64,000 bases of DNA from Rudaea cellulosilytica DSM 22992 (GTDB lineage Bacteria; Pseudomonadota; Gammaproteobacteria; Xanthomonadales; Rhodanobacteraceae), in the NCBI RefSeq assembly GCF_000378125.1, contig NZ_KB899241.1, positions 533,652-597,651 of the forward strand, read 5' to 3'. This document shows, in pieces, positions 39,072 to 49,637 of this stretch (position 1 is the first letter of the stretch; the number at the start of each line of letters is the position of its first letter). The position numbers and the translations under genes were made by a program. The notes beneath the pieces are model-generated. The model saw nothing but the letters and a program-made list of their open reading frames with translations, was not told the DNA's origin and made no database searches.

Positions 39072-40547
39072 CTACAGCCCACCCACCGCCTGTGCCACTG
39101 CACGGAACAGTGCGCGGCATTTGTTCATCGTTTCCTTCCACTCGAGCTCGGGCACCGAATCGGCGACGACGCCGCCCGCGGCCTGCACGTGCAGTTGGCC
39201 GTCCTGCACGATCGCGGTGCGGATCGCGATGGCAAGGTCGGCCTCGTCGTGCCAGTTCCAGTAGCCGATCGCACCGCCATAGACGCCGCGCTTGACCGTT
39301 TCGAGTTCAGCAATCACTTCCATCGCGCGCACCTTCGGCGCGCCGGTCAGCGTGCCTGCCGGAAACGTCGCGCGGAACACGTCCATGAAACTCAGTCCGG
39401 CTTTCAGCTTGCCGACGACTTCGGAGACGATGTGCATGACGTGCGAGTAGCGTTCGACGACCATGTTCGCGGTGAGCTCGACCGTGCCGGTTTCGGCGAT
39501 GCGACCGACGTCGTTGCGTCCGAGGTCGATCAGCATGAGGTGCTCAGCGCGTTCCTTCGGGTCGGCAAGCAGCTCCGCTTCCATCGCCGCGTCATCCTCG
39601 GGCGTGTGCCCGCGCCGGCGCGTGCCGGCGATCGGGCGCAGCACGACCTGTTCGCCCTGCGCGCGCACGAGAATTTCCGGCGAGGAGCCGATGATTTGCT
39701 CGCTGCCGAGATCGATGAAATACATGTACGGCGACGGATTCAACGCGCGCAGTGCGCGGTAGACGTCGAGCGGACGCGAACGGAACGGCACGCTGAGGCG
39801 CTGGCTGATCTGCACCTGGAACACATCGCCCGCATAGACGTATTCCTTGGCCTTTTCCACCGCGGCAAGGTAGTCGTCCTTCGGAAAACTCGAAACGAAA
39901 TGCGACTCGTCGATCGCCTTCGGATCGACGATGTCGGGATAAGCCGCGCTGGTCGAGCGCAGCCGATGCACGAGCGAGTCGAGCCGGCGCTGCGCGCGCG
40001 CGTAGGCGCGCGGCTCGGCCGGATCGGCATTGACGATGAGATAGAGCTTGCCCTTCAAATTGTCGAAAACGGCGAGCTCTTCGGCGAGCATGAGGCAGAT
40101 GTCGGGCATGCCGAGCTGGTCCGGCTTCGCGTCGGCCTTGACCTTGTGCTCGATGTAGCTTGCGCATTCGTAGCCGAAATAACCGACCAGGCCGCCGGCG
40201 AATTTCGGCAGACCCTCGATGCGTGGCACCTTGTACTGTGCTTTGATCTGCGCGATTTCGGCGAGCGGATCGGCGACCTCGCGCTCCTCGATCGTCTCGC
40301 CTTCCTCGCTGATCGTCAGGCGATGGCCGTAGACGCGGATCACGCGGCGTGCCGGCAGGCCGATGATCGAATAGCGTCCCCAGCGCGCGCCGCCCTCGAC
40401 CGATTCGAACAGATAGGCATACGGCCCATCGGCGAGTTTGAGGTAGACCGACAGCGGCGTGTCGAGATCGGACAACACCTCGCGCACGAGCGGAATGCGG
40501 TTGTAGCCCTGCGCGGCGAGTGCGGCGAATTCTGCGGGAGAGATCAC
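39072..40547 (-). CDS. trpE: Anthranilate synthase component I
   Basis: 491 residues. It converts chorismate plus ammonia to anthranilate. The N-terminal half contains the feedback pocket (LVREVLSDLDTPLSVYLKLA, and ARWGRYSIIG). The chorismate-binding half carries VQISQRLSVPF, NPSPYMYFIDLG, SSPEILVR, RPIAGTRRRG, DLGRNDVGR, PAGTLTGAPKVRAME and GGAIGYW. Tryptophan feedback inhibition is usual for the family. I looked for a Trp-rich leader peptide upstream and found none. A plausible promoter is at 40606-40577. Confidence 0.96.
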   Translation of the reverse strand: MISPAEFAALAAQGYNRIPLVREVLSDLDTPLSVYLKLADGPYAYLFESVEGGARWGRYSIIGLPARRVIRVYGHRLTISEEGETIEEREVADPLAEIAQIKAQYKVPRIEGLPKFAGGLVGYFGYECASYIEHKVKADAKPDQLGMPDICLMLAEELAVFDNLKGKLYLIVNADPAEPRAYARAQRRLDSLVHRLRSTSAAYPDIVDPKAIDESHFVSSFPKDDYLAAVEKAKEYVYAGDVFQVQISQRLSVPFRSRPLDVYRALRALNPSPYMYFIDLGSEQIIGSSPEILVRAQGEQVVLRPIAGTRRRGHTPEDDAAMEAELLADPKERAEHLMLIDLGRNDVGRIAETGTVELTANMVVERYSHVMHIVSEVVGKLKAGLSFMDVFRATFPAGTLTGAPKVRAMEVIAELETVKRGVYGGAIGYWNWHDEADLAIAIRTAIVQDGQLHVQAAGGVVADSVPELEWKETMNKCRALFRAVAQAVGGL

Positions 40548-48277: not shown

Positions 48278-48364
48278 AGCTCTTGATCCCTACCCCACCG
48301 GGACAAGCCGAGAAAAACGGCGCCACGCTTGTCGCCGGCAAATCGATGTGATATTTGTATACCC

Positions 48365-48448
48365 ATGACCTCCACCCGCCACAGCTATTACTTTTGGTAT
48401 TACGGCATTCCCAAGCCGCTGGCGGAGGAAGGGGCGCGATCGATCTGA
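48365..48448 (+). CDS. Aromatic-amino-acid-rich leader peptide of aroG
   Basis: A 27-residue frame begins 1 bp after a TATACC box (48358-48363) and ends 109 bp before aroG. Residues 8-13 are Tyr-Tyr-Phe-Trp-Tyr-Tyr (codons 48386-48403), all three products of the pathway that aroG opens. An intrinsic terminator follows at 48474. Its left arm CCGCCGG can alternatively pair with CTGGCGG (48419-48425) inside the leader frame, an antiterminator option. This is the classical ribosome-stalling attenuator layout. Translation is inferred, not shown. Confidence 0.8.
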   Translation: MTSTRHSYYFWYYGIPKPLAEEGARSI

Positions 48449-48473
48449 AGATCCGCAAACAAGACCCTCGAAG

Positions 48474-48500
48474 ACCGCCGGCCACCCCGGCGGTTTTTTT
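48474..48500 (+). terminator. Attenuator terminator upstream of aroG
   Basis: CCGCCGG (48475-48481), loop CCACC and CCGGCGG (48487-48493) form a perfect GC stem followed by seven T's. It stands 57 bp before the aroG ATG and 26 bp after the leader-peptide stop, so most transcripts would end here unless the alternative pairing with 48419-48425 forms. Confidence 0.85.
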
Positions 48501-48557
48501 ATGGCCGCCGGGAAGTCCACAGAACCCAACCCCCGATGACCCTCCCAGGAAACCGCC

Positions 48558-49637
48558 ATGACCACCCACCACACCGACGACCTGCGCATAGCCGAACTGC
48601 GCGAACTTTCCACGCCCGCCCAGGTGATTGCCGAATTCCCGCTCGACGATGCGGCCGAGGACACCGTGGCGAAATCGCGCGCGGCGGTGCACGCCATCCT
48701 CGACGGCACGGACGACCGCCTCGTCGTCGTCGTCGGGCCCTGCTCGATTCATGACACGACGGCCGCGATCGAATACGCCCAGCGCCTGGTCAAGGAGCGC
48801 GCGCGTCTCGCGGGCGAGCTCGAAGTCGTCATGCGTGTCTATTTTGAAAAACCGCGCACCACGGTCGGTTGGAAGGGCCTAATCAACGATCCCGACCTCG
48901 ACGGCAGCTTCCACATCGACAAGGGTTTGCGCCTCGCGCGCGGATTGCTGCGCGACATCAACGCGCTCGGCCTGCCGGCCGGTTGCGAGTTCCTCGACAT
49001 GATCACGCCGCAGTACATCGCCGATCTGGTCGCTTGGGGCGCGATCGGCGCGCGCACGACCGAGAGCCAGGTGCATCGCGAACTCGCATCCGGCCTGTCC
49101 TGCCCGGTCGGCTTCAAGAACGGCACCGACGGCAACGTGAAAATTGCGGTCGACGCGGTGCTCTCGGCAGCAAGCCCGCATCATTTCATGGCAGTGACGA
49201 AGGAAGGCCGCACCGCGATCGCGGCGACGCGCGGCAACCGCGACTGCCACGTCATCCTGCGCGGCGGCAAGACGCCGAACTATGACGCGGCGAGTGTCGA
49301 CGCGGCATCTGCGGCGATCGCCAAGGCCGGCCTCAATGACCGCGTCATGATCGACGCGAGCCACGCCAATTCGTCGAAGAATCCGGAGAACCAACCGACG
49401 GTGATCGACGACATCGCCGGCCAAGTCGAAGCCGGCGAAACGCGCATCCTCGGCGCGATGATCGAAAGCCATCTCGTCGGCGGTCGCCAGGATCTCGTCG
49501 AAGGCCAGCCGCTGAAGTACGGCCAGAGCATTACCGACGGCTGCATCGACTGGGAAACGACCGTGCGCACGCTCGATCGCCTCGCCCAGGCCGTACGCGC
49601 GCGCCGCATGCGGGCGGAGGTCAAGTCGGCGGCCTGA
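48558..49637 (+). CDS. aroG: 3-deoxy-7-phosphoheptulonate (DAHP) synthase, class I AroG type
   Basis: 359 residues, with AGGAAA ribosome binding upstream. It condenses PEP and erythrose 4-phosphate, the entry step to all aromatic amino acids. Class I motifs are LVVVVGPCSIHD, MRVYFEKPRTTVGWKGLINDP (first part MRVYFEKPRTTVGWKG), SCPVGFKNGTDG, HVILRGGKTPNY, MIDASHANSSKNP and MIESHLVGGRQ. Enzymes of this type are usually inhibited by one aromatic amino acid; which one cannot be read here. The aromatic leader peptide and terminator upstream suggest added control by attenuation. Confidence 0.96.
   Translation: MTTHHTDDLRIAELRELSTPAQVIAEFPLDDAAEDTVAKSRAAVHAILDGTDDRLVVVVGPCSIHDTTAAIEYAQRLVKERARLAGELEVVMRVYFEKPRTTVGWKGLINDPDLDGSFHIDKGLRLARGLLRDINALGLPAGCEFLDMITPQYIADLVAWGAIGARTTESQVHRELASGLSCPVGFKNGTDGNVKIAVDAVLSAASPHHFMAVTKEGRTAIAATRGNRDCHVILRGGKTPNYDAASVDAASAAIAKAGLNDRVMIDASHANSSKNPENQPTVIDDIAGQVEAGETRILGAMIESHLVGGRQDLVEGQPLKYGQSITDGCIDWETTVRTLDRLAQAVRARRMRAEVKSAA

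Follow-up and report, generated by a model that had tools for sequence, protein, structure and literature searches.

The sequence upstream of aroG, which encodes a type I DAHP synthase, very likely forms a ribosome-mediated transcription attenuator, as judged from the leader and its relatives. More specifically, we propose that one leaderless ORF jointly reads the charging of tRNA-Tyr, tRNA-Phe, and tRNA-Trp, so that a shortage of any of them would turn aroG on, and that this switch was inherited along with one clade of AroG, which spans the Xanthomonadales, the Burkholderiales, and several groups of alphaproteobacteria; most of the Oxalobacteraceae seen have no Trp codon in the leader. We consider this fuller proposal to have an even chance of being right.

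A putative attenuator upstream of aroG

The features of the region are listed below. (The window is the whole 64-kb stretch of DNA that was analyzed.)

48329-48334, + strand: -35-like box TTGTCG, read off the sequence, with T's that are conserved in relatives
48349-48357, + strand: extended -10-like box TGA-TATTTG (hexamer at 48352-48357, 17 nt past the -35-like box)
48363-48366, + strand: start of transcription as predicted from the positions of the boxes, no more than 2 nt from the leader ATG
48365-48448, + strand: leader ORF, translated as MTSTRHSYYFWYYGIPKPLAEEGARSI and then a stop; kept in relatives
48376-48381, + strand: region 1, CCGCCA, which pairs with the TGGCGG of region 2 in the predicted fold of 48370-48500
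48386-48403, + strand: control codons TAT TAC TTT TGG TAT TAC (Tyr Tyr Phe Trp Tyr Tyr)
48404-48418, + strand: 15-nt spacer between the last aromatic codon and region 2
48419-48425, + strand: region 2, CTGGCGG, the competitor of the terminator
48430-48468, + strand: inner stem of the antiterminator in the predicted fold (AGGG at 48430-48433 with CCCU at 48465-48468; GAUC at 48438-48441 with GAUC at 48450-48453)
48474-48481, + strand: region 3, ACCGCCGG, left arm of the terminator
48487-48494, + strand: region 4, CCGGCGGT, right arm of the terminator (with the T run, 48487-48500)
48494-48500, + strand: seven T's after the terminator stem
48558-49637, + strand: aroG, type I DAHP synthase by NCBIfam and Pfam (PF00793), the gene that would be regulated

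The leader ORF runs from an ATG at 48365-48367 through 27 codons to a TGA at 48446-48448. A preliminary description of this DNA had reported the 27-codon frame, the six successive aromatic codons, a GC-rich hairpin with seven T's, and CTGGCGG as an alternative pairing partner; all four lie where it placed them, to the base. The run of six aromatic residues is unique among the six frames of the window, in which the only other run of at least four is a single run of four. Similarly, when the window was divided into 400-base tiles (step 200, both strands), the tile of this leader was the only one that contained an aromatic-rich mini-ORF with a terminator. The terminator is laid out as ACCGCCGG-CCACC-CCGGCGGT followed by the seven T's (48474-48500). 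A strict pattern scan called no terminator at the locus, presumably because the stem runs into the T tract.

Region 1, which the preliminary description did not list and which we add here, sits directly 5' of the aromatic codons. With its predicted pairing to region 2, a complete set of 1:2, 2:3, and 3:4 pairings can be drawn. The RNA of 48370-48500 is predicted to fold with 1:2 and 3:4 at -51.2 kcal/mol (z = -3.18; 1 of 200 shuffles was as low), and for the longer RNA of 48353-48510, z is -2.31, which 3 of 200 shuffles matched. For 48413-48481, in which region 1 is hidden and region 4 is not yet made, the predicted fold consists of 2:3 and the inner stem, with the stop codon of the leader in the loop of the inner stem; the energy of this fold is unremarkable (25 of 200 shuffles as low).

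These parts would work together as follows. Transcription would begin on or next to the leader ATG, with a ribosome trailing the polymerase across the leader. If tRNA charged with Tyr, Phe, or Trp were scarce, the ribosome would stall on 48386-48403 and separate region 1 from region 2. Region 2 would then pair with region 3 before region 4 is made, the terminator would not form, and aroG would be transcribed. The 15-nt spacer would hold region 2 clear of a ribosome that is stalled at the last aromatic codon, given the size of the ribosome's footprint. If aromatic amino acids were plentiful, the ribosome would move on, 1:2 and 3:4 would form, and transcription would end at 48494-48500. In view of its recurrence in many related bacteria, the switch very probably serves to activate the pathway when aromatic amino acids are scarce. 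The parts, their conservation, the covariation of the terminator, and the mutual exclusion of the predicted folds are observed in the sequences; from these we infer where the transcript starts, that ribosomes stall, and that Tyr, Phe, and Trp each matter.

The putatively regulated gene and other aromatic genes

The product of aroG scores 525 bits against NCBIfam TIGR00034 (aroFGH), well above the cut-off of 173, and 546.7 against the AroG-only model, which is under that model's cut-off of 568. AGGA lies upstream of the gene, at 48547-48550. The preliminary description wrote of "this DAHP synthase", but it has company: the window's genome also encodes a type II DAHP synthase, which lacks such a leader. 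Type II enzymes were found in 190 of the 194 genomes of the family that were searched, and type I AroG in 91 of 197. Thus, the leader cannot be explained by there being a single DAHP synthase. We also considered whether the type II gene carries the same switch, and rejected this, as none of 31 type II loci that we read had the leader and terminator. (In 30 of these 31 loci, L240-L270, and in a separate reading also in the remaining one, L246, an ORF of about 20-50 amino acids, MPxWTLIWYVLL-like and resembling a membrane peptide, lies before the type II gene (PF01474); no terminator follows it.) In the window's genus (g1), 5 of 16 genomes have type I AroG and 10 of the remaining 11 have the type II gene; several of these assemblies are incomplete. 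The window also contains trpE (39096-40469, minus strand), about 8 kb from aroG. No similar aromatic leader was found in the 400 nt before the likely starts of the genome's trpE and of its pheA (prephenate dehydratase).

Conservation of the leader and terminator

We examined 239 places upstream of relatives of aroG: 91 from the window's family, 6 from a sister family, 80 from named loci, and 62 from other members of the phylum. In the family, 91 genomes had a match and each contributed a single place (one of them also had a partial second match, which we omitted). The sample is not random, as the phylum and named-locus searches favored the best matches and some genomes are represented twice (for example, L022 and L031). 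A place was considered positive if some 8 residues of a mini-ORF included 4 or more aromatic ones and a terminator followed. By this test, 182 of the 238 places with enough sequence were positive (176 distinct leader-terminator sequences). For comparison, dinucleotide shuffles gave 4 positives in 2380, and stretches from elsewhere in the named loci gave 7 in 1980. The positives comprise 90 of 91 places in the family (the exception is L179), 6 of 6 in the sister family, 54 of 80 named loci, and 32 of 62 from the rest of the phylum. A terminator was present in 182 of the 194 rows that have an aromatic mini-ORF. The preliminary description had made its reading depend, in advance, on conservation of the leader peptide and of the competing stems in relatives; the peptide and the predicted stems are both conserved.

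The named rows without a leader include relatives from the Enterobacterales, Vibrionaceae, Methylophilaceae, and Rhodocyclales. There were 26 misses among the named loci, but in three of these (L044, L067, and L091) an aromatic leader can be recognized by eye. We set aside the Trp-rich mini-ORFs of L071, L086, and L230 as upstream coding sequence that is read out of frame.

On a quick tree of 132 AroG proteins, with L044, L067, and L091 labeled by eye, the presence of the leader requires 8 changes, versus 22.4 for shuffled labels, and 107 of the 108 rows with leaders fall within a fork of 113 rows (SH-aLRT 93). Judging from this clustering, the switch apparently accompanies a single clade of aroG. 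The alphaproteobacterial genes are nested in the tree, which suggests that they may have been transferred. Two AroG proteins that are labeled as Anaerolineae (L107) and Melainabacteria (L090) lie among the proteobacterial ones and might come from misbinned contigs; L107 carries an aromatic mini-ORF.

Conservation of the predicted competing stems

Covariation was assessed with an alignment (A2) of 67 dereplicated sequences and 500 shuffles as the null. In the terminator, 94.6% of cells were paired and 45 cells were changed on both sides; three of five measures were reached by none of the 500 shuffles and the other two by 5 of 500. In the 2:3 stem, 86.7% of cells were paired, but the observed values were reached by 12 to 78 of 500 shuffles (31 of 500 for the score), or by 145 to 290 of 500 if only the 30 nearer sequences were used. 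Because the five core pairs (GGCGG:CCGCC) barely vary, covariation of 2:3 is uninformative either way. The preliminary description had proposed looking for an aromatic block with compensatory changes in both hairpins. We see such changes in the terminator but not in the alternative stem, where the core leaves almost no variation to assess.

Other evidence does support the 2:3 stem. The GGCGG core is present in 172 of the 182 rows, of which 166, 3, and 3 have it in each of the three reading frames of the leader (10 rows are without it). As the core appears in all three frames, it is the RNA that is kept and not the peptide. Also, in folds with the upstream part masked, as for a stalled ribosome (with its edge assumed to be 9 nt beyond the aromatic block), region 3 pairs with the upstream leader with a probability above 0.5 in all 68 of 68 representatives, versus 14% of controls in which the upstream part was shuffled. 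The spacer between the block and region 2 is 7-20 nt long in 181 of 182 rows and 8-12 nt long in 149, as measured from an automatically placed edge of the block. The 1:2 pairing has no support on the alignment, as region 1 shifts in position among the sequences. We also compared the strength of each helix to shuffled segments: for 2:3, 60% of the 182 rows exceed the 95% null and 3% exceed the 99% null, and for 1:2, the corresponding proportions are 34% and 9%. This test is weak, and the short length and high GC content of the segments are the probable reason.

A predicted leaderless transcript

In 58 dereplicated sequences from Xanthomonadales, aligned on the leader ATG, T occupies position -36 in 84% and position -35 in 71%. 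The boxes of the Xanthomonadales rows are TTG-like (at -36) and TATnnn (near -13), with a spacing of 17 nt, and the alphaproteobacterial rows have TGACAA-like and CTATAT-like boxes at similar positions. Across 112 dereplicated rows, the best -10-like match begins at -14 to -12 of the leader ATG in 57, while about 15 would be expected from shuffles. Many betaproteobacterial rows have, by eye, TATAAA or TATAGT about 30-45 nt upstream. A motif like Shine-Dalgarno precedes the leader in just 1 of the 112 rows, versus 101 of 112 for the start of the aroG match. From the positions of the boxes and the missing Shine-Dalgarno motif, we infer that the leader mRNA is leaderless or nearly so in the Xanthomonadales and alphaproteobacterial rows. 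We had also considered whether a C just before the leader ATG (at -1) marks leaderless starts, but it is indecisive, as 33 of 38 betaproteobacterial rows have it too. A strict pattern scan called no sigma-70 promoter at the locus. The preliminary description had placed a -10-like box just before the leader frame, and had said that a start downstream of that frame would refute its reading; the conserved pair of boxes lies upstream of the leader, consistent with a start that is not downstream of it. Together with the conservation of the peptide and the stems, this favors the attenuator that was first suggested.

Which amino acids are sensed?

Codons for all three aromatic amino acids are present together in the aromatic block of the leader in 104 of 104 rows from Xanthomonadales (Rhodanobacteraceae and Xanthomonadaceae), 35 of 35 rows from alphaproteobacteria, 19 of 30 rows from other betaproteobacteria (10 of the 30 lack Trp), and 1 of 13 rows from Oxalobacteraceae. 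(The 12 Oxalobacteraceae leaders without Trp are L040, L042, L043, L045, L048, L051, L061-L063, L084, L096, and L131.) In columns that are anchored on Trp, the Trp codon is constant and the adjoining positions alternate between Phe and Tyr. Aromatic residues make up 24.7% of the leaders versus 4.1% of AroG, and TTT accounts for 80% of the Phe codons in leaders versus 11% in the aroG genes that we examined. Whether each of Tyr, Phe, and Trp alone would relieve the attenuator we regard as evenly poised, because the codons tell us which shortages could stall ribosomes and not which ones do, and because the one relative that has been measured reportedly answers to one of its two amino acids.

The same attenuator might operate with just one amino acid that matters (Phe or Tyr, whichever has its tRNA emptied first) and with the other aromatic codons as passengers. 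We consider this possible but less likely than not. It would fit with the report that aroR of Corynebacterium glutamicum, which has Phe-Tyr-Phe, answers to limitation of Phe and not of Tyr (according to the accessible text of PMC11802643), and with the absence of Trp from the Oxalobacteraceae and other betaproteobacterial rows counted above, but it does not account for TGG being present in all 139 of 139 rows from Xanthomonadales and alphaproteobacteria, beside codons that alternate between Phe and Tyr. A different kind of sensing, as for TnaC, in which the cue is a free aromatic compound instead of an empty tRNA and the nascent peptide itself arrests the ribosome, seems very unlikely to us: YPxPLAE-like residues are conserved after the aromatic block within the Xanthomonadales, but this stretch differs in the alphaproteobacterial, Burkholderia, and Oxalobacteraceae rows that we inspected, and it partly encodes the frame-independent RNA element.

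The terminated RNA of about 135 nt, or the peptide, might also act in trans, as is reported for rnTrpL and peTrpL of Sinorhizobium meliloti. The general layout is alike, as the leader ORF here is also predicted to sit at the 5' end, and such a role would be compatible with attenuation; we think that it is unlikely. Alternatively, a chance aromatic mini-ORF could lie beside a terminator of purC, with aroG unregulated. A terminator after purC would indeed fall here, and the strict promoter scan was empty, yet a coincidence would not be conserved across groups of proteobacteria when the control rates are so low, nor would it explain the conserved pair of boxes between purC and the leader, so we give this explanation almost no weight.

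Searches with a covariance model

We built a covariance model (R1) from the aroG leaders. In the window's genome, R1 has one strong match, at aroG (E = 6e-34); the other 15 rows have E of at least 8e-4 and are mostly the terminator end alone, with two full-length matches at E = 0.11 and 0.51. Across 299 genomes from the phylum, R1 has 35 full-length matches with E < 1e-8, of which 34 precede type I DAHP synthase genes (many are members of the model) and one precedes pheS, as judged from position or by reading the gene. The weaker rows are mostly terminators: among 20 that we fetched, 6 preceded a DAHP synthase gene, 3 preceded pheS or a pheA-like gene, and 11 preceded neither, so we rejected R1 as a finder beyond aroG. 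In one family of bacteria (f6), leaders of the form MQSRNFFAFYFWFSVPGGREARL lie before DAHP synthase genes, including second copies. (Loci L311-L315 and L324, from one family of the same class as the window, have aromatic leaders with a distinct end, VPGGREARL-like in several of them, before DAHP synthase genes that are in some cases second copies.)

No Rfam 15 family reached its cut-off in the window. In a relaxed scan, Phe_leader (RF01859) scored 16.9 bits, below its cut-off of 55, and it reached the cut-off at 0 of 7 loci with DAHP synthase leaders. Of three phe-type loci, Phe_leader matched two and did not match the pheA-like locus L317. R1 also matches the two Rfam Phe_leader loci, before pheS and pheA genes (one with E = 3.8e-6). 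Because two of the three phe loci are Phe_leader loci, this is a modest control.

Comparison to known attenuators

In E. coli, there is one DAHP synthase isozyme for each end product. These isozymes are under separate regulators, among which the accessible part of a review names TyrR and TrpR (PMC11802643). A single block of codons could replace such regulators and act as an OR gate for three amino acids within one RNA. The element is compact, it is widespread in the groups that we sampled, and it has no Rfam match at the cut-off where this was checked. As there are natural variants with and without Trp, the amino acid that is sensed can be tested directly. The element would also help with annotating a small gene and could aid the engineering of aromatic amino acid production.

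Our literature search, which reached subscription papers only in part, turned up no description of the proteobacterial element or of a three-way aromatic sensor. The nearest described system is aroR of C. glutamicum. The aroR-aroF attenuator is said to be the subject of Neshat et al. in 2014. It is also treated in PMC4046766, as far as its accessible text goes. In the accessible text of these sources, aroR encodes a Phe-Tyr-Phe leader before aroF and reportedly responds to Phe and not to Tyr (PMC11802643), or to Phe "and probably also" Tyr (PMC11525245). Like the aroG leader, it has aromatic codons and precedes the gene for a DAHP synthase, with ribosome-mediated attenuation (proposed, for aroG) at the entry to the pathway; unlike the aroG leader, it is actinobacterial, and Trp goes unmentioned in those parts of the sources. 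The likeness is by description. The uORFC-13-1 motif, from Acholeplasma and environmental sequences, is also a candidate uORF with a terminator before a DAHP synthase gene (aroF), but it has at least one Phe codon and is presented, in the part of the paper that was available, as a candidate (PMC8632094). The attenuator RNA of S. meliloti trpL begins at the leader ATG, according to the available portions of PMC7298713 and PMC10117765; a leaderless start would be common to both systems, although it is only predicted for aroG, and trpL has Trp codons and controls trpE(G).

The enterobacterial Phe_leader (RF01859), which precedes pheA and pheST, has in common with the aroG leader a run of aromatic codons, a GC-rich terminator, and alternative stems (predicted ones, for aroG). 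Its leaders (which we take to be pheL for pheA and pheM for pheST) are dominated by Phe and lie before pheA or pheS, and the aroG leader is below the family's cut-off. Leaders that respond to several amino acids are not new as such: those of the thr and ilv operons read two or three amino acids each, as we propose here, but these are the branched-chain amino acids or Thr and Ile and not the aromatic ones. Thus, the aroG element would belong to a known class of mechanism, while lying outside of Phe_leader, covering three aromatic amino acids, and probably having a leaderless start.
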